64,000 bases of DNA from Thermoanaerobaculaceae bacterium. Its GTDB lineage: Bacteria; Acidobacteriota; Thermoanaerobaculia; Thermoanaerobaculales; Thermoanaerobaculaceae. The notes under the pieces were generated by a model. The model did no database searches. It was not told the DNA's origin and saw only the letters and a list, made by a program, of their open reading frames with translations. The DNA is taken from assembly GCA_013388425.1 (NCBI GenBank), contig JACADV010000071.1, positions 1-64,000 of the forward strand, read 5' to 3'. A program made the position numbers and the translations under genes. Below, one piece after another: positions 52,310-61,194 of this stretch (position 1 is the first letter of the stretch; every line of letters starts with the position of its first letter).

Positions 52310-55300
52310 TCAACCCGCCTCGCCCGTCCCTCCCACCGCCCCTTCCGGTGTGCCACTCCGCCCCGCCCCGTACAGCCAGAGGAGTCCCGCGCCAGCCGCC
52401 AGCGCCAGCAGGAGGGCTCCCTGGACCGCGTAGTTCGCGCCCGGCTGGCCCAGCAGCGGCAAGGCAGCCCGGGTGGCGGCAGTCCACAACGCCGCGAGGA
52501 GGTAGGCTACGGGGTTGCGCGCCAGGACGAAGCGCACCACTACCCACGCCAGGGCCACCAGGGCAGCCCCTTGCAGGAGGCCGCAGGCCAGCTCCCCCGC
52601 CGTAGCATCCGCGCCTGTCGGCACCGCCGCCAGGGTCGCGGCAGCCAGGAAGAGCCAGCGCTGCCAGCCCGGAGTCGTCCGGCCCACCAGGTGAGCAGCC
52701 ACCCCAACGGCCGCCACCAGCAGGAGGGCCACCGCCACCGCGTTGCCGAGTCCCGCAACGACGGGCAGGGCGGTGGCCAGGTTCGTGGGGATCTCCACCG
52801 GTGCGTCGGGGAACAGCTGCGGGGCACGGGACCGAGCCAGGTTCACGGCGGCGCCCCACAGCAGGGTCACTCCCACCACCATCAGCGCTGCCCCCACCGA
52901 GCTTGCCGCCACCCGCCGTCGGGCGTAGGCGTCGCAGGCGCCCAGGGCAATGGGCTGCGCTGCCACGAGGGCAGCCAGCGCCAGCACGATGCCGGCCACC
53001 TTGAGCAGGAAACCGATGGCAAGCCCGATGAGCATCCACGTGCGGAAAACGGCGATGGGCCACGCCGTGACGTACTCCTGCCAGAGCAAGGGGTAGCTCA
53101 CGGCGGCAGCCGCTGCCATCACGACGGCCGCCGCCCCCGCCCACATCCACACCGGCCTCCAGGGGAGCGTCCCGGCCCGCTGCGCCCGCGCCAGGGCCAA
53201 AAGACCCGTCACCACCAGCCACGCGAAAGCACCGATGCGCACGGCGATGAGTGCGTAGTGCCACACCGTGGCCCGGGCTCGCTGCCGCTCCCACGCCTCC
53301 GGCAACTTGATGCGACGCTCGTGGCCATCCACGGCGTCGCCCTGCACGGTGACCGAGAGCAGGTACTCCGCCTCCCCAACACTGCGCCGAGGATCGGCAA
53401 AGGTGAACACATAGTCCAGACGCGCCGGCCGGCGCTCGGACGTGGACTCCTTGAAGGCCAGGGTGGCGGGGTCGATGCCCAGCTCCCGCAGCGACGCCTC
53501 GGCCAGTGACCGCGCCTCCGCCTCGCCCAGAGCTGGCCCCGGTGCCTCCTCCCGCACGGTGTGCCGGTACCGCACCACCGCCCCCGCGCGGTCGTCCACC
53601 TCGAGCTGCCACTCCTCCCGCTCCTCCCCCCGAAACACCCGCACGCGCCAGGCCGGCACCTCGGCCGCACAGTGTTGCACGCCTGCCACCCCGCCGTGTT
53701 CCAGCAGGTAGCGGCGAACGGAACGGTCCAGCACCTCGCCGCGCGCCGTCACGACGAACCGCCAGGCAGATACATCCACCCCGCGACGGGCGAGGAAATT
53801 GGCCGCTGCCCGGCGCACCGCGGCGGGGCGCGCGGTGACGCCAACGCCTTTCCCCGCCGCGGGGACCCACCCGGTCGCCGCCACCGCCAGCAGCAGCGTG
53901 GCGACACCCGCCGGCAGCAGCCACCTGGCGGAGGGGGCCGCAATGCTCCCGCGCCAGGGAGTCGCCCGGCGTACCGGCTCCTCCGGCGGCGGGTCGGCCG
54001 CATTGTCCAGGGAGGGGTCCACCACGAACCCTCCCGCCCGCCACGCTGCCACCAGCGCCACGGCGAGGGGGATGAGCAGGACCCCGGTGCCGACCAGCGC
54101 GGTGACCACGAAGTAGGGGTTGCCGGAGCGGACGAGGAGCATGGAGGTGTAGCCCGCGTCCACCACGTAGTGCCACACCAGACAGGGGATCACGCCGAAC
54201 CGGTAGAACACGATCCCCACCAGGATCCCCGCCAGCGAGACCTCCACCCCCCGGATGTAGAACGGCTGGGCGGGGTAGTTGGCGTGGGCAAAGCCCCAGA
54301 TGAGCGCCGGGATTGCCACCGCCGCCACCTGGGAGCGGGTCAGGCGTTCCACCAACGGGATGGAGAACACGCGGGACAGGAACTCCTCGCTCACCGCGGG
54401 ATAGAAGCCGATGAACAGCACGGCGAGCCATGGGAACGAGGTGTTGAGCAAGTTGTCGAAAGGCACTTCAGCGGGGTTCCACGCCCCGACTCGCTTCCCC
54501 ACCAGGTAGAACGCCACCTGGTACGCAATGAAGAGGGCCGCCAGGCAGTAGCCCAGGATCAGGCCCAGTGCTACCCGCTTGCTGCGCCAGCCGGAGCGCG
54601 TGAAGATGGCGGCAATGCGCATCTGCCCGGGGAAGCGGGCCCGGTACAGTGGCTCCCCCGCCGCCACGACGATGAAAACCAGGAGCGACTGCACCCCCGC
54701 CCCCCCCAGGGCGCGCAGGAACTGCCCCGCCACGAAACCGCCCCAGCTCTCGGTGGTATCGAAGGTGTAGCTGGCGGTTGGCAGGTCGTTGAGCGCCAGG
54801 GCCAGCGCCAGCACGAAGCTCACCGCCGTCACGCCAAAGGCCAGGCGCCAGCGGACCTCGTGCCGCCGGGCCGCGCGCAGGAGCACCGCCACGGCTGCAA
54901 AGAGCGTCACCGCAATACCGAAAAGTGCTGCCATGGCCGCCGTCTCGTTGGCCGACCGCAGCCGCTGGTAGGAGTGCACCCAGGCGTCGGGAACCTTGAG
55001 GAACTCCCGATACGAAGCCACCTCCTCCCCGCTCAGCCCCACCTCCAGCCGGTAGCTGGCCTCCCCTGCCCGCCAGGCGTTCCGCTCGTAGGTGAACGTC
55101 CAGTCCCGGCGCGCTGGCCGGTCCTCCCGGTGGGACTCCACCAGGACCACCTGGTCGAGACGCAACCCCATGGCCGTCGCGAGGAAGGCCTCGGCCCGCT
55201 GCCGCGCCTCCCCCTCCTCCAGCGACGCCCCGGCTCGCTCCTCGGGGATGGCATGGGAAAACCCCACCACGTCCCCCTCCGGCGCCACTTCGACGCTCAC

Positions 55301-55663
55301 CTCCTCCTTGTCCAGGGGGAGGAAGAAGCGGTGCGACCAGCGCCAGGGGCGCACCTGGCGTTGCCGGATCAGCTCCGCCATGCGCTCCAGACCCACCTCG
55401 CGCTCCAGGTAGAGCTTGGCCTGCCCATCCACCTGGAAAATTGCTGCGTGCCGTCGCCCCGCCAGCGCGGCCGCAGCCACGGGCGCGTGCTGGCGGAGGA
55501 AGGTCTCGCCCACGGGGCGCGAGCTGCTCCGGTTGACGGCAAAGGTGAGGCTGGCTTCCGGGAACGCCCGCGTGAAGTTGGCCCAGGCGAACACCGCCGC
55601 CCCGGCTGCCGCCACCAGGAAGAGGCCCACGCCCACCAGTTCTCTACGCGTGAAGCGTTCCAT
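52310..55663 (-). CDS. very large CPBP (Abi) intramembrane protease with duplicated sensor-like domains
   Basis: The protein has 1117 residues. Layout: membrane helix, extracytoplasmic domain (about 35-245), several helices, then a CPBP domain with SEEFLSRVF (EExxxR), WGFAHANY and WHYVVDAGYTS (about 500-620). A second extracytoplasmic domain (about 705-905) resembles the first: LVESHREDRPARRDWTFTYE versus FKESTSERRPARLDYVFTFA, with KVPDAW / KLPEAW. Another 7-8 helices end the chain. Only one protease core is seen. Most CPBP proteins are 200-300 residues. ATG 55663 has GGAGGA upstream. Confidence 0.85.
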   Translation of the reverse strand: MERFTRRELVGVGLFLVAAAGAAVFAWANFTRAFPEASLTFAVNRSSSRPVGETFLRQHAPVAAAALAGRRHAAIFQVDGQAKLYLEREVGLERMAELIRQRQVRPWRWSHRFFLPLDKEEVSVEVAPEGDVVGFSHAIPEERAGASLEEGEARQRAEAFLATAMGLRLDQVVLVESHREDRPARRDWTFTYERNAWRAGEASYRLEVGLSGEEVASYREFLKVPDAWVHSYQRLRSANETAAMAALFGIAVTLFAAVAVLLRAARRHEVRWRLAFGVTAVSFVLALALALNDLPTASYTFDTTESWGGFVAGQFLRALGGAGVQSLLVFIVVAAGEPLYRARFPGQMRIAAIFTRSGWRSKRVALGLILGYCLAALFIAYQVAFYLVGKRVGAWNPAEVPFDNLLNTSFPWLAVLFIGFYPAVSEEFLSRVFSIPLVERLTRSQVAAVAIPALIWGFAHANYPAQPFYIRGVEVSLAGILVGIVFYRFGVIPCLVWHYVVDAGYTSMLLVRSGNPYFVVTALVGTGVLLIPLAVALVAAWRAGGFVVDPSLDNAADPPPEEPVRRATPWRGSIAAPSARWLLPAGVATLLLAVAATGWVPAAGKGVGVTARPAAVRRAAANFLARRGVDVSAWRFVVTARGEVLDRSVRRYLLEHGGVAGVQHCAAEVPAWRVRVFRGEEREEWQLEVDDRAGAVVRYRHTVREEAPGPALGEAEARSLAEASLRELGIDPATLAFKESTSERRPARLDYVFTFADPRRSVGEAEYLLSVTVQGDAVDGHERRIKLPEAWERQRARATVWHYALIAVRIGAFAWLVVTGLLALARAQRAGTLPWRPVWMWAGAAAVVMAAAAAVSYPLLWQEYVTAWPIAVFRTWMLIGLAIGFLLKVAGIVLALAALVAAQPIALGACDAYARRRVAASSVGAALMVVGVTLLWGAAVNLARSRAPQLFPDAPVEIPTNLATALPVVAGLGNAVAVALLLVAAVGVAAHLVGRTTPGWQRWLFLAAATLAAVPTGADATAGELACGLLQGAALVALAWVVVRFVLARNPVAYLLAALWTAATRAALPLLGQPGANYAVQGALLLALAAGAGLLWLYGAGRSGTPEGAVGGTGEAG

Positions 55664-55712: not shown

Positions 55713-56615
55713 TCACCTCGGGCCCGCCACCACCCGCAGGGCTGCCGGCAGGATCTCAAAGGTGGCTGGCCCGCAGGGGTACGTTTCGCCGTCCACGTCA
55801 AAGGGGGGTGCCGGCGCCAACGGCTCCAGGTGCACCACCTTGGCGCGCCGCACCCGGACCGGGCGCGCCTGAAGGTGTGTTCCGAGGTACACCTGGGGGA
55901 GTCGGCGCACGAGCTCGGTGCCCCGGACCTCGCCCACCACCACGACGTCGAACCACCCATCGTCCCACTGCGCCTGGGGGGCAATGTGCATCCCCTTGCC
56001 GAAGCTCGTGCCGTTGGCAACGGTGGCGAGGAAGGTGGGGCCCTCGTACCAGCACTCCCCGTCCACCTCCAGGCGCATCGGCACCGCCCGAAAACGGCGT
56101 AGCGCCCGCACCGTTGCCACCAGGAACGCGGTGGCCCCGCGCCGCGGCATGGCGTTGACGCTCTCGTCCACGAGCCCGGCCACGCCGGCAGAGGTTTCGT
56201 TAATGAAGTGGAAGCTCGCCCGCTCGCCCAGGCAGCGCCCCGCGTCCACTGGCACCCCTTCCCCCTCGAGAGCCAGGGTCAACGCCGCGCGCAGCCGCCG
56301 GGGAATCCGCAGCGAACGGGCCAGGTCAGAGCCGGTGCCGGCCGGCACTACGCCCAGGGTCACCCGCTGCCCGGCCCCCACCTCCAGGAGCGCGTTCGCC
56401 ACCAGGTGGAGCGTGCCGTCGCCGCCAAAGACCACCAGCCGTTCGTACCCTCCCTCCACCGCCTGCTGCACCGCGAGCCGCGTGGCGGCTCGATCGGCGG
56501 GCCGCTGGACGGGCAGGGACCTCGCCGGGGGCAAGCGCCGTTGCAGCCGCTCCCACACCCCCCACGCCCGCCCACCCCCGGCCGCGGGGTTGACGAGGAC
56601 CAGGGCCCGGCTCAC
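55713..56615 (-). CDS. diacylglycerol/lipid kinase family protein
   Basis: The protein has 300 residues. The DAGK catalytic domain has LVNPAAGGG at the N-terminus, GGDGTLHLVANAL and GVVPAGTGSDLARSLRIP. The C-terminal half has the beta-sandwich with TSFGKGMHIAPQAQWDDGWF. It phosphorylates a lipid such as diacylglycerol or an alkylglycerol. GTG 56615 overlaps the glpD stop as GTGA. Confidence 0.9.
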   Translation of the reverse strand: MSRALVLVNPAAGGGRAWGVWERLQRRLPPARSLPVQRPADRAATRLAVQQAVEGGYERLVVFGGDGTLHLVANALLEVGAGQRVTLGVVPAGTGSDLARSLRIPRRLRAALTLALEGEGVPVDAGRCLGERASFHFINETSAGVAGLVDESVNAMPRRGATAFLVATVRALRRFRAVPMRLEVDGECWYEGPTFLATVANGTSFGKGMHIAPQAQWDDGWFDVVVVGEVRGTELVRRLPQVYLGTHLQARPVRVRRAKVVHLEPLAPAPPFDVDGETYPCGPATFEILPAALRVVAGPR

Positions 56616-58231
56616 GCCGGCTCCCGGGGTAACCAGTTGGCAACAGCATCCTCCAGCCGGTACAGCTCCTGCCGCCAGCGCCGAAACCCCCACCCCGCTG
56701 CATCCCGGACCAGGCTGCCCAGCCGCGGTGCCAGTTCGAGGCAGCGTTTCGGTTGCCACATACCGAGTCGCACCCGCCGCAGGAGCAGATCCTCCAGGTG
56801 CACCACCCCACCGAAGCGCAGGTGCCACTCGAGCTCGGCCTCGCTCACATCCACACCCTCGGCCACCGGCCGCAGGCGGCGACGGCTCGCAGCCAACGCG
56901 CACGGCAACGCCTGGGCCCCGAGTCGGCGCACCATGCCCGCAGCCACTGCCGGCGGCGCCCCGCTCTCCACCACCAGGCGCACCGTGGCGGCAGGGTCGG
57001 CCCGGTGCGGGAGCGCCAGTGCGCCGGTGGCACAGGGCAGGGCGAGGGCAGCGCGATCCGGCGGCAGGCGTTTCACCACCTCGTCCACCACCTCCTCGGC
57101 GGTGGCTCGGAAGGTGGTGAGCTTACCTCCAGCGGTGGAAACGAGGCCTTCCTCCTCCCAGACCGCCTCCTCCCGCGAGGCCTCCGAGGGCTCCTCGGCG
57201 TGGGAGTCCAGGATGGGCCGGACCCCCGCAAAGGCCCCCGTCACGTCGGCCACCGTCAGGTGGCAGGCGGGGAAGAGGGTGGCGACGAAGCGCATGAGGT
57301 ACGCCACCTCCTCCGGCGACGGGCGCGGAGCGTCCAGGTCCCCCTCATGGAAGACGTCGGTGGTACCCACCAGCGTTCCCTCGGGGTGCGGGATGGCGAA
57401 CACCGGCCGACCATCGTCGGGCGACAGCGCCGTCACCGCTGCCTCCAGGGGCAAGCGGTGGGCCGGGAACAGCAGGTGCGAGCCGCGGGACGGCCGCAGT
57501 CGCGGTTCCACCTCGCCCAAGAGCCGCCGCAGCTGGTCGCACCACACCCCCGTGGCGTTGACAACCACGTGGGCACGGACAGCGTGGGTCTCACCCGTCA
57601 CCTCGTCCCGCACCACTGCCCCCCCCACGCGGCCATCCTTGCCCCGCAGCAACGCTTCTACCCGCGCGTACGAGAGGGCAGTGGCACCGGCTAGCACCGC
57701 GGCCTGCACCACCGCCAGCACGAGCCGGGCATCGTCCCCGGCCGCGTCGTCGTAGGTGAGCCCGAACTCCAGCCCGTCGCGGCGCAGGTGCGGAATCAGG
57801 GCCGCCACCTGGGCGGGGGTGATGCGCTCGTGGCGGTGCCGCACCGGCGTCAAGTGGTCGTACATGGTGAGGCCGAGGTTCACCTGCCAGCCAGGAGTCG
57901 TGTCGGTGGCGAAGGAGGGGTAGAGGAAGCGCAGCGGCCACACCAGGTGCGGGTTCAGCCGCGAGAGGAGATCGCGCTCCCGACAGGCCGTGCGCGTGAT
58001 GCGGAGCTGCATCCGCTTGAGGTAGCGCAAGCCGCCGTGGACCAGCTTGGAGGAGCGCGACGAGGTGCCGCAGGCAAAGTCGCCCCGCTCCACGAGCCCG
58101 GCCCGCAGCCCCCGCACCGCCGCGTCGTGCAGCACACCAGCACCGGTGATGCCGCCGCCAATGACCAGGACGTCCAGCCCCTCCTCCAGGCGCTGCCAAG
58201 CGCTCTGGCGCCACCACGGTGGCAGCATCAT
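56612..58231 (-). CDS. glpD: FAD-dependent glycerol-3-phosphate dehydrogenase
   Basis: The protein has 539 residues. FAD motif VIGGGITGAGVLHDAAVRG, then TSSRSSKLVHGGLRYL (split as SKLVHGGLRYL), YDDAAGDDARLV and the C-terminal GlpD domain. It oxidises glycerol-3-phosphate to dihydroxyacetone phosphate at the membrane. Coupled by ATGA to the alkyl-DHAP synthase-like gene and by GTGA to the lipid kinase, so its product may feed that enzyme. Confidence 0.92.
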   Translation of the reverse strand: MMLPPWWRQSAWQRLEEGLDVLVIGGGITGAGVLHDAAVRGLRAGLVERGDFACGTSSRSSKLVHGGLRYLKRMQLRITRTACRERDLLSRLNPHLVWPLRFLYPSFATDTTPGWQVNLGLTMYDHLTPVRHRHERITPAQVAALIPHLRRDGLEFGLTYDDAAGDDARLVLAVVQAAVLAGATALSYARVEALLRGKDGRVGGAVVRDEVTGETHAVRAHVVVNATGVWCDQLRRLLGEVEPRLRPSRGSHLLFPAHRLPLEAAVTALSPDDGRPVFAIPHPEGTLVGTTDVFHEGDLDAPRPSPEEVAYLMRFVATLFPACHLTVADVTGAFAGVRPILDSHAEEPSEASREEAVWEEEGLVSTAGGKLTTFRATAEEVVDEVVKRLPPDRAALALPCATGALALPHRADPAATVRLVVESGAPPAVAAGMVRRLGAQALPCALAASRRRLRPVAEGVDVSEAELEWHLRFGGVVHLEDLLLRRVRLGMWQPKRCLELAPRLGSLVRDAAGWGFRRWRQELYRLEDAVANWLPREPA

Positions 58232-59850
58232 TCCCTCCCCTCCGGCTCGCCATCGGCCAAGAGCACACCGCGGTTGAGACAGCCGGCCGGGTCGAGAGCC
58301 GCTGCTGTGGCGCGGAGCACCGCCAACCCCTGCCGGCCCACCTCCCGCTCCAGGTAGGGCGCGTGGAGACACCCCACGCCGTGGTGGTGGGAGAGGGTGC
58401 CTCGAGCCTCCAGGATGGCGCGAGTGGCTGCCCCTTTGCACTGCTGCCACTGCTCCCTCTCGCGGCCCGGCTCGAGGGGCCAGAGGAAGGTGAAGTACAG
58501 CGACGCGCCGTCTCGGTACGCGTGGGAGAGGTGGCAAAGCACGGCAACGGGAACCCCCAACGCCTCGCCGGCCGCAGCCAAGGCCCTCCGCACCGACGCG
58601 TACAGCGCCGCCAGTCCGCTCCAGGTTGCGGCCGTCTCCAGGGTGTCCACCCCCCACCCCGCCTCGAGCAGATGGTCGCGCAAGTAGGGGTGGCGGAAGC
58701 GCTCGGCCCGCCAGCGCCGCCACCCCGAGCGACCCACCCCCAGGCCGCTGTGCGCTCGCCACACTGTGGCGCAGCGGCTCTCCGCCTCCGCCACCTCCTC
58801 GGCGCTCCCCGCCCACCCCAGCAGCAGCGCACAGGCGCGACGGAACCGCCGCCGGGACAGCAGCCAGCGCGACACCACCCGCGCCGGCATCGAGAGCTCC
58901 AACAGGCTCTGGCCGAAGGAGGTCTCCTCCTCGTCCGAGAGGCGCACCACCTCCACCGGGAGCCCCCCCTGCAGGATGGCCCGGCACGCCGCCATCCCCT
59001 CTTCCCAGGTGGGGAAAAGCACGGTGACGCCGTTCTCGTGCTGCGGCAGCGGCCGCACCCGCAACGTTACCGCGGTGATCACCCCCAACCGCCCCTCGCT
59101 GCCCACCACCAGACGCCGCAACTCCGGGCCCGCTGCCGAGGCGGGCTGGGGCGGTAGCCGCCACACCCCACCAGCCCCGGCCAGCTCCACCCCGGCCACC
59201 AATTCCTCGATCTTCCCCACGCCGGTGGAACGCTGTCCAGCGGAACGGGTCGCGACCCACCCCCCCACGGTGGACAGCTCGAAACTCTGCGGCTCGTGTC
59301 CCAGCCGCAGCTTCTCCCCTGCCAGTGCCGCCTCCACCTCGGGGCCAGTCGTTCCCGCCCGGAAGGTGGCCAGGCGCGACACGGGATCGAGGGCCACGAG
59401 TCCCCGCAGCCGGTCCAGGGAGAGCACCACCGAAGGGCGATCGCTGCGCTGCAGGGAAACACCCCCCACCACGCTGGTACCGCCCCCCCGCACCACCACG
59501 GCCACACCCGCCTCGGCTGCCCGGCCCAGGTCGGCCACGATCGCTTCCGCGCTGGTTGGGAAGAGCACCGCGTCGGGGAAGGCGGCAACGTCCCCCGAAC
59601 GCAACGCCAGTAGGTCCAAAAAGGACTGACCGCAGGCGTGGCGCAGCCGCGTGGCTGCGTCGCTCGCCACGGCGGAGCTAAAGGGGGGGAGCGGCCGGGG
59701 CGGCGGGACCGTCACTGTCGTCTCGGGCACTGCCGAGAGTGGGGCACCCCTCCCCACCCGCGCCTCCAACCAGCGGACGGCGGTGGCGGGGAGCGACACC
59801 GATTCGCCCTCGAACCCCCACCCGTTCCAGCGACGCTCGCCCCTGGCCAT
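58228..59850 (-). CDS. FAD-linked oxidase, alkyldihydroxyacetonephosphate synthase-like
   Basis: The protein has 540 residues. The PCMH-type FAD fold shows VVVRGGGTSVVGGV, EPQSFELSTVGGWVATRSAG and GKIEELV. The C-terminus has YFTFLW and SHHHGVGCLHAPYL. The triple histidine and these blocks distinguish alkyl-DHAP synthase from glycolate or lactate oxidases. This enzyme swaps the acyl chain of acyl-DHAP for a fatty alcohol, making an ether bond. ATG 59850 lies 7 bases after TAGTAT. Heads the ADPS-glpD-lipid kinase unit. Confidence 0.83.
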   Translation of the reverse strand: MARGERRWNGWGFEGESVSLPATAVRWLEARVGRGAPLSAVPETTVTVPPPRPLPPFSSAVASDAATRLRHACGQSFLDLLALRSGDVAAFPDAVLFPTSAEAIVADLGRAAEAGVAVVVRGGGTSVVGGVSLQRSDRPSVVLSLDRLRGLVALDPVSRLATFRAGTTGPEVEAALAGEKLRLGHEPQSFELSTVGGWVATRSAGQRSTGVGKIEELVAGVELAGAGGVWRLPPQPASAAGPELRRLVVGSEGRLGVITAVTLRVRPLPQHENGVTVLFPTWEEGMAACRAILQGGLPVEVVRLSDEEETSFGQSLLELSMPARVVSRWLLSRRRFRRACALLLGWAGSAEEVAEAESRCATVWRAHSGLGVGRSGWRRWRAERFRHPYLRDHLLEAGWGVDTLETAATWSGLAALYASVRRALAAAGEALGVPVAVLCHLSHAYRDGASLYFTFLWPLEPGREREQWQQCKGAATRAILEARGTLSHHHGVGCLHAPYLEREVGRQGLAVLRATAAALDPAGCLNRGVLLADGEPEGRE

Positions 59851-59857
59851 CCTCCCC

Positions 59858-59863
59858 ATACTA
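59858..59863 (-). promoter_or_regulatory. -10 box TAGTAT before the ether-lipid type operon
   Basis: TAGTAT, then GGGGAGG (7 bases), then ATG at 59850. The leader would be 0-1 base, so the GGGGAGG would not be transcribed or would be too close to serve as a ribosome site. Confidence 0.45.
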
Positions 59864-59891: not shown

Positions 59892-60281
59892 TCACCGCCC
59901 CCGCACCCGCTCCATGCGCCGGCGATCGCGCTTCTCCGGCCGCCCCCGACCGCGGGGCGGGGCTGGCGCCGGCGCCAGGCGCTCGAGACGTCGCGCCTCG
60001 AGTTCCGCCTCGCTGGGGGGCGGGGTCACGTCCTCCCAGAGGGTACGGGCCTCGGCCTTGGGGAGGTGCCGCTCCGCAAGCGCCCGCACCACCACCTGCC
60101 GCCGCAGGGCGGGTCCCAGCACCAGCTGGATCCGGTCGCCGGGCCGGATGAGGCGGTGCGGTTTGGCCCGTACGCCGTTGACCTCCACCTTCCCGCCGTC
60201 GCACAACTCCTTGGCCTGGGAGCGGGTACGCGCCAGGCAGGCCACGTCGAGCCAGACATCGAGGCGAACCGCGTCAGACAC
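59892..60281 (-). CDS. S4-domain RNA-binding protein (Hsp15/HslR-like)
   Basis: The protein has 129 residues. The S4 domain occupies 1 to about 65: RLDVWLDVACLARTRSQAKE, GGKVEVNGVRAKPHRLIRPG. A basic Arg-rich tail (RGRGRPEKRDRRRMERVRGR) follows. Hsp15 family proteins bind 50S subunits carrying stalled nascent chains. The GTG start is set by TAGAAT 6 bases upstream. Confidence 0.88.
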   Translation of the reverse strand: MSDAVRLDVWLDVACLARTRSQAKELCDGGKVEVNGVRAKPHRLIRPGDRIQLVLGPALRRQVVVRALAERHLPKAEARTLWEDVTPPPSEAELEARRLERLAPAPAPPRGRGRPEKRDRRRMERVRGR

Positions 60282-60384: not shown

Positions 60385-61194
60385 TCACTCCCCGGACTTC
60401 ATCTCGAGGCTGAGCGTGCCTTCACTCCCGCCCCCCTTGGCGCCAACCATGAGGGTGAGCACCTGCGCTCCCCCGTCCGCAGTGGCGTGGAGCAGACCGC
60501 CCGACACCTCCCGGCCGCGCTGGCTGGAGGTGACGGTCACCTGGAAGCCCTTGCCCTCCATCTCCCGGCGGTAGAAATCGAGGATCGCCTGGGGTGAAGC
60601 GCTGGCGGTGAAGCGCCAGGACCCGCCGGTGGCGCCGCTGGCGAGGCGGGCCGAGGCGATATTCTCGAGCCGCATCCCCGGATAGACGGGCAGGAACTCG
60701 GGGATATCGGCCTGCGCCCCCTCCCCGAAGGTCATCTCCCCCTCTTCGCTCTCGATGCGCACCGTGCCACCCTCTCCCCCCTGGGCGGTCACCTGCAGCC
60801 GCTTCCCCTCGCCGGTGGTGAAGGTGAACTTTCCCCGCTTTGCCTCCTCCAGATCCACGGTGAGTAGCTCGCCCGTCTTCTTGTTGCGGACGGTGATGGT
60901 GCCCGCGTCGTCGTCGGCGGAGACCAGCTCCACCTCGGGGTTGGCGGCCACCACTGCCTTGGCCACCACCATGGCCGGGTTGTCGCGTACCTCGCCCAGC
61001 ACGCTCTTGGCCTTGCGGGCGATGAGGACGCCGCCGACGAGGAGCGCCACCGCCACCAGCACCAGCAACACCCCGCAGCCCACCAACACCCAGAGCAGGG
61101 GGCTCACCCGCTTGCCCGTGGGTGGTGAGGGCGGGTTGGACGGCGGAACGGTGGGTGGCGGGGGGGGCGGTACCTGCGATGGCGATGTGGACAT
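60385..61194 (-). CDS. hypothetical membrane-anchored protein, 269 aa
   Basis: This protein is not recognised. A Pro-rich N-terminus (1 to about 28) precedes one membrane helix (LLWVLVGCGVLLVLVAVALL), then a soluble domain. Residues about 80-150 are beta-rich (DDDAGTITVRNKKTGELLTV), and the end (about 165-269) has YPGMRLENIASARLASG and ILDFYRREMEGKGFQV, the latter a pattern seen in domains that follow a protein sequence-to-peptide change over time. Function unknown. ATG 61194 has GAGAGAG upstream. Confidence 0.75.
   Translation of the reverse strand: MSTSPSQVPPPPPPTVPPSNPPSPPTGKRVSPLLWVLVGCGVLLVLVAVALLVGGVLIARKAKSVLGEVRDNPAMVVAKAVVAANPEVELVSADDDAGTITVRNKKTGELLTVDLEEAKRGKFTFTTGEGKRLQVTAQGGEGGTVRIESEEGEMTFGEGAQADIPEFLPVYPGMRLENIASARLASGATGGSWRFTASASPQAILDFYRREMEGKGFQVTVTSSQRGREVSGGLLHATADGGAQVLTLMVGAKGGGSEGTLSLEMKSGE

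Follow-up and report, generated by a model that had tools for sequence, protein, structure and literature searches.

Do the three coupled genes at positions 55,713 to 59,850 of a contig from a Thermoanaerobaculaceae bacterium (Acidobacteriota) make ether lipids, or do they take glycerol ethers apart? The window, by which we mean the whole stretch of 64,000 nucleotides analysed (JACADV010000071.1, positions 1 to 64,000), encodes at this place a flavoprotein resembling AGPS (also called ADPS, the alkyl-dihydroxyacetone phosphate synthase), a GlpD-type dehydrogenase and a lipid kinase, and the original prediction took the three for an ether-lipid synthesis operon. Which genes bacteria use for ether lipids is disputed, and bacterial AGPS homologues are counted as markers of ether-lipid or plasmalogen synthesis in metagenomes (PMC11868695). 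We tentatively favor a different reading, in which kinase, GlpD and AGPS-like enzyme form a short pathway of ether cleavage or salvage whose starting compound is a 1-O-substituted glycerol, in the likeliest case a 1-O-alkylglycerol. The genes are as follows.

59850-58228, minus strand: AGPS/ADPS-like flavoprotein gene, 540 amino acids (aa), SHHHGVG at residues 487-493, Pfam FAD_binding_4 and FAD-oxidase_C
58231-56612, minus strand: GlpD-type FAD glycerol-3-phosphate (G3P) dehydrogenase gene, 539 aa, Pfam DAO and DAO_C
56615-55713, minus strand: YegS/Rv2252/BmrU-family lipid kinase gene, 300 aa, Pfam DAGK_cat and YegS_C

The first junction is an ATGA overlap and the second a GTGA overlap, and all three frames are open. 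These overlaps, the SHHHGVG motif and the family assignments, all predicted originally, were borne out by the coordinates and the Pfam domains. The set is far beyond chance, as judged from the AGPS structure matches and from the same trio in relatives.

Family and active site of the flavoprotein

When PDB sequences were searched, Dictyostelium AGPS (2uuu, 1.4e-70) and guinea-pig AGPS (4bby, 6.3e-60) were found first, and glycolate oxidase followed at 5e-25. The predicted structure (mean pLDDT 80) matched AGPS with a Z score of 33.4 over 492 residues and mLDHD with 27.6; the fold is of the VAO type, and the likeness to AGPS covers residues 4-531, at about 26-29% identity in the structural alignment. 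Residues H488-H490 form the HHH motif, a catalytic feature of AGPS, and R303, R391 and Y452 correspond to R352, R447 and Y508 of the Dictyostelium enzyme. Mutation of these three residues harms Dictyostelium AGPS (PMC3509576). Their equivalents and the HHH motif are kept in all 11 Thermoanaerobaculia-type rows. In the GlcD-type rows, the R352 site is E and the Y508 site H in 13 of 13, and the R447 site is R in one of 13. A GlcD or lactate oxidase identity was rejected because of the tree placement described below and the absence of the E/H/GEH active-site pattern; judged by its sequence, the flavoprotein is a member of the AGPS superfamily and not a GlcD/lactate dehydrogenase.

Two trees were compared. 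The first contained 77 rows: 104 loci had a relative, 29 rows were removed as truncated, duplicated or nearly so, and two PDB sequences were added to the remaining 75; locus L015, which has frameshifts, was not extracted. The second, under a mixture model, used 45 of the 77 rows and omits the long rows L074 and L081, among others. In the 77-row tree, 64 AGPS-like rows stood apart from 13 GlcD-type rows at 100/100 support, consistent with the ADPS-like assignment predicted at the outset; the grouping with glycolate or lactate oxidases that had been named as its refutation was not seen. Membership in the superfamily thus stands, and membership in the true-ADPS clade does not: in both trees, which include two characterized AGPS enzymes, the window protein lies outside their clade. 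The two PDB enzymes and ten Acidobacterial proteins formed one clade (96/82; hereafter the true-AGPS clade), and the window protein belonged to a separate clade of 20 rows (100/99). Its members are Thermoanaerobaculia-type and other Acidobacterial proteins together with Chloroflexi ones, and three actinobacterial proteins joined it weakly (87/62). The mixture-model tree concurred, with 98/87 for the AGPS clade, 100/98 for the window clade and 82/77 for the actinobacterial join. Support for the order of the AGPS, window and plasmid-borne branches was moderate in both trees (pairs from 80/48 to 95/71), and for this reason the idea of an older family, from which biosynthetic AGPS arose, is offered only as a suggestion.

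Gene neighborhoods in Acidobacteriota

Neighbors were labeled by tblastn with queries drawn partly from the same groups, and contig ends truncate several of the loci (L005, L035, L057, L096, L171); four f7 rows have only about 1.5 kb of flank. GlpD adjoins the AGPS-like gene in 11 of 11 Thermoanaerobaculia-type rows and 6 of 6 other Acidobacterial rows, the latter of FGGY-kinase type. It adjoins none of the 12 true-AGPS rows, among which two PDB sequences have no neighborhood. In a sample of 247 genomes of the phylum, GlpD came next, on that strand, wherever an AGPS-like gene of the 20-row clade had flanking room. The nine top GlpD matches of this sample (all >360 bits) were exactly the AGPS-linked ones, and the tenth (329 bits) came from a genome outside the list of those with an AGPS-like match.

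In 8 of the 11 Thermoanaerobaculia-type rows, counting the window itself (7 if its row, L001, a short copy ending before the kinase, is taken as it stands), the third gene encodes a YegS-type kinase; L005 is cut, and L055 and L056 are without it. An FGGY-family kinase takes this place in five of the six other Acidobacterial rows, the sixth being cut. The FGGY-type unit is headed by a FadR regulator in 7 of 7 Acidobacterial genomes, and all three regulators tested pass the NF003444 cut-off and fail that of TIGR02812. When 16 genomes (13 triad-type and three true-AGPS) were searched, an FGGY kinase over the cut-off was found in none of the eight whose unit has YegS and in all eight others, and therefore the two types of kinase seem to substitute for one another. 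The window genome itself yielded no FGGY (glycerol) kinase over the cut-off and hence no GlpK to feed its GlpD; absences in this genome are soft because it is 83% complete (2.14 Mb, 109 contigs).

The true-AGPS loci have other partners. An SDR match lies in the fetched stretch of nine of the ten, three of the nine also having a PlsC-type acyltransferase, and the tenth, which is cut, has neither; the SDR matches are weak in three of the nine (26-32% identity) and several kb off in one. No GlpD, FGGY or YegS gene was found beside any of the ten. The nine SDR-bearing loci, all in other Acidobacteria, are L067, L069, L070, L071, L073, L095, L097, L098 and L099. A fatty acyl-CoA reductase (FAR) domain above 100 bits was detected in all three true-AGPS genomes of the sample (179-219 bits) versus 3 of the 13 triad-type genomes, all matches in the other ten being below 100 bits. 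In these true-AGPS genomes (G141, G227, G050), FAR lies in large frames (L118-L120), each about 1,490-1,500 codons long. Acidobacteria with true-AGPS-clade genes are the better candidates for ether-lipid synthesis.

The two helper enzymes named with the original prediction, a DHAP acyltransferase and a FAR, were looked for. FAR matches in the window genome were weak and generic, the best reaching 35.7 bits, and the unit holds neither an acyltransferase nor a reductase; none of the three partners of ether synthesis (reductase, acyltransferase, FAR) was found beside the window AGPS-like gene, in a genome of the completeness given above.

GlpD and kinase

The window GlpD scored 295.2 bits, below the NCBIfam GlpD equivalog cut-off of 360, and is on this basis a divergent GlpD. 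It keeps the DAO and DAO_C domains and the G3P-site residues (R54, Y55, H233, R317, R332 and K354 in E. coli numbering). When the GlpDs were compared for residues that would betray a bulky substrate, just four group-specific columns emerged. The window kinase scored 123.4 bits against the TIGR00147 subfamily, above the cut-off of 118.65. GlpD was present in 13 of the 16 genomes, as the sole copy in 12 of the 13 triad-type ones, and was absent from the three true-AGPS genomes; this absence is not general, since a larger GlpD survey found unlinked GlpDs in some true-AGPS genomes (G104, G156, G157 and G242).

Recurrence in other bacteria

The linkage recurs outside the phylum. GlpD adjoins the AGPS-like gene in all three actinobacterial rows and all three Clostridia/f32 rows. 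In Streptomyces fungicidicus and Tsukamurella, genes for TetR, GlpD, the AGPS-like protein and YegS are grouped; in Nonomuraea, GlpD is present at the locus and the kinase was not found there. One Clostridia locus came from horse faeces, and a further seven were found in 291 genomes of the same class, with an FGGY kinase in all eight and GlpA plus GlpB in seven, the eighth being cut by the contig end before GlpA (the GlpB entry of L014 was taken from a separate reading of that locus). A Novosphingobium locus has GlpD, AGPS-like and FGGY genes. The GlpDs of Streptomyces, Tsukamurella, Nonomuraea and the f32 group do not group with that of the window. The linkage therefore probably has more than one origin, a point in favor of a shared pathway. 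The linked kinases belong to two unrelated folds, YegS-type and FGGY.

Relatives on other branches keep different company. In Paracoccus and Roseibium (L075, L103), whose AGPS-like proteins are basal relatives, the AGPS-like gene stands with genes for a xylulokinase-like FGGY kinase, a UgpC-type ABC transporter and a 'glycerol dehydrogenase'. Three plasmid-borne genes (L076, L104, L105), from Sphingopyxis macrogoltabida, Pseudorhizobium and Xanthobacter dioxanivorans, have GST and acyl-CoA ligase-type genes alongside, and an aldehyde dehydrogenase gene in two of the three. Because the hosts include Sphingopyxis macrogoltabida and Xanthobacter dioxanivorans, the plasmid set suggests breakdown of a polyether, polyethylene glycol (PEG) or dioxane; no usable literature was found on AGPS-like enzymes that cleave PEG ethers. 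Both kinds of neighborhood are what would be expected if the AGPS-like substrate were a small water-soluble glycerol ether, a glycoside or another phospho-ketose, with lipids uninvolved. We consider this improbable for the window, as these relatives occupy other branches of the tree, and the lipid-kinase fold of the window set and FadR of the FGGY sets point to lipids.

Proposed pathway and its alternatives

In the mechanism of AGPS, whose substrate is acyl-dihydroxyacetone phosphate (acyl-DHAP), the C1 proton is removed, C1 joins N5 of the flavin, the acyl group is expelled and an alcohol is added (PMC3509576). This makes the predicted role of GlpD as a supplier of DHAP for ether synthesis chemically weak, because AGPS uses acyl-DHAP and not DHAP; free DHAP has no exchangeable group, and a GlpD that made only DHAP would therefore not feed the AGPS-like enzyme. 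If the dehydrogenase is in the path, it would have to oxidize a 1-substituted G3P, made by the kinase from a 1-substituted glycerol. We infer from this the following sequence of reactions. The YegS-type kinase would phosphorylate the free end of the glycerol, converting R-O-glycerol to R-O-glycerol-3-phosphate; the GlpD-type flavoenzyme would oxidize C2 to a ketone, giving R-O-DHAP and passing electrons to quinone; and the AGPS-like enzyme, by AGPS chemistry, would use its Tyr to deprotonate C1, which would add to flavin N5 with expulsion of R-OH. Water or a fatty acid would then add, to yield DHAP or acyl-DHAP. The net result would be O2-independent ether cleavage or salvage, with AGPS chemistry reversed relative to the animal enzyme. 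The direction is preferred because GlpD oxidizes, whereas the SDR of the biosynthetic clade could reduce the ketone; a kinase with an oxidizing, quinone-type dehydrogenase fits breakdown or salvage more naturally than synthesis. Of the predicted ether-lipid synthesis operon, the AGPS-like enzyme is retained, and the direction would be the reverse.

Synthesis stays the chief rival, since the kinase and oxidation steps would serve it too, starting from monoacylglycerol. In this scheme, which keeps the idea of the original prediction with a new substrate for GlpD and dispenses with a DHAP acyltransferase, the kinase would make 1-acyl-G3P and GlpD would oxidize this to 1-acyl-DHAP, whose acyl group the AGPS-like enzyme would then exchange for a fatty alcohol. 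The scheme would account for the intact catalytic residues and the lipid kinase within the operon, AGPS itself acts on acyl-DHAP (PMC3509576), and ethers are present in Acidobacteria of other subdivisions (PMC13274423). It is nevertheless unlikely in our estimation: the unit has no alkyl-DHAP reductase, while the true-AGPS clade has an SDR nearby; FAR matches in the window genome are weak, soft as that absence is; and monoacylglycerol is no obvious starting point for the sets that have an FGGY kinase.

Several observations weigh against cleavage. The Chloroflexi loci have AGPS-like and FGGY genes without GlpD, the nearest sampled relatives (G207, G078) lack the adjacent kinase, and a strong FAR match (>100 bits) does occur in three of the 13 triad-type genomes. 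FGGY kinases usually act on small polyols, not lipids, and FadR also activates synthesis genes. No GlpD residue marking a bulkier substrate was found, the G3P-site residues being identical in linked and unlinked GlpDs. In the excerpts of the AGPS literature available to us, there was no report of the enzyme using water or running backwards. Rv2252 is reported to be a diacylglycerol kinase making phosphatidic acid (PMC3229680), which GlpD could not oxidize. The activity of Rv2252 and the ordinary G3P site of GlpD are among the strongest of these counterpoints to cleavage.

The same two facts would be explained if there were no linear pathway at all and an ordinary G3P dehydrogenase, an ordinary diacylglycerol or lipid kinase and a third glycerolipid enzyme were neighbors through shared regulation. 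That the linked GlpD is the only one found in 12 of 13 triad-type genomes accords with this as well. We regard it as distinctly unlikely, because the trio recurs, with dehydrogenases and kinases of other kinds, in Clostridia, Novosphingobium and Actinobacteria, and because start-stop overlaps couple the genes.

Of broader scope is the proposal of a widespread O2-independent pathway of glycerol-ether cleavage, from gut Clostridia to mycobacteria, with the biosynthetic AGPS of animals and myxobacteria nested in an older family linked to kinase and dehydrogenase; this is a doubtful extension of the cleavage proposed for the window. To our knowledge, bacteria have no well-known enzyme for taking glycerol ethers apart. 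If many bacterial AGPS-like genes belong to kinase/GlpD sets and break ethers, the marker counts from metagenomes are misread; a testable route of ether-lipid turnover without oxygen would also be at hand, and the uncharacterized Rv2251 region of mycobacteria would acquire a function.

Comparison with known systems

The AGPS family is known in bacteria, and what is probably new here is the kinase and GlpD partners and the probable direction; no description of the kinase-GlpD-AGPS-like set was found among titles and abstract openings of the open-licence literature. Compared with AGPS of 4bby and 2uuu, the window unit is without FAR, GNPAT or alkyl-DHAP reductase alongside. The Myxococcus xanthus operon MXAN_1676-1674 is likewise headed by an AGPS homologue but has partners other than the GlpD and lipid kinase of the window, and disruption of MXAN_1676 affected ether lipids little (PMC9131029).

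The three functions and a regulator also lie together in M. tuberculosis, in the layout of Streptomyces fungicidicus and Tsukamurella, with Rv2249c (glpD1), Rv2250c (regulator), Rv2251 (flavoprotein, likened by description only) and Rv2252 (diacylglycerol kinase). These four genes show similar, about twofold changes in a table of the M. bovis BCG InbR study (PMC4564863). The actinobacterial layout differs from that of the window in being divergent, in the TetR-type regulator of Streptomyces and Tsukamurella and in GlpDs that group apart.

Glyceryl ethers are cleaved by alkylglycerol monooxygenase (AGMO), a tetrahydrobiopterin-dependent membrane protein that is not known to be related to the window enzymes. 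It has been termed the sole enzyme that cleaves the 1-O-alkyl bond of ether lipids (PMC9192799). The ester-to-ether reductase Ger/PlsA is a known bacterial route to ether lipids (PMC13274423); its PF09989 match was absent from the window genome and present in one (G005) of the 16 genomes searched.

Flanking genes and related loci

The genes on either side of the unit are given below.

52310-55663, start at 55663: CPBP/DUF4901 protein gene, 1117 aa, 49 bases after the kinase gene
59892-60281: Hsp15-like S4 gene, 41 bases upstream of the operon
60385-61194: gene for a 269-aa protein with no Pfam family, preceding the Hsp15-like S4 gene

The 49-base gap had been noted correctly. The following gene had been called a duplicated CPBP protease, and it does encode a CPBP-domain protein; the domain (Rce1-like) is detectable once, and it is a DUF4901-like stretch that is duplicated (36% over 171 aa). 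Since there is no CPBP relative in any of 14 related loci (L002-L015), we rejected this gene as a member of the unit. A scan for promoters and terminators gave no promoter-like sites and four terminator-like sites against 3.6 expected.

The closest AGPS-like relatives are encoded in metagenome-assembled genomes. Most of these genomes are of Acidobacteria, and two bear the label Thermoanaerobaculum and one Thermoanaerobaculaceae. In Thermoanaerobaculum SKYB76, the triad (L015, 9001-12937) is split into several frames, probably by assembly errors in view of the stated coverage of about 4. Genes for the Hsp15-like S4 and 269-aa proteins likewise stand ahead of the AGPS-like gene in the Thermoanaerobaculum loci L009 and L015.
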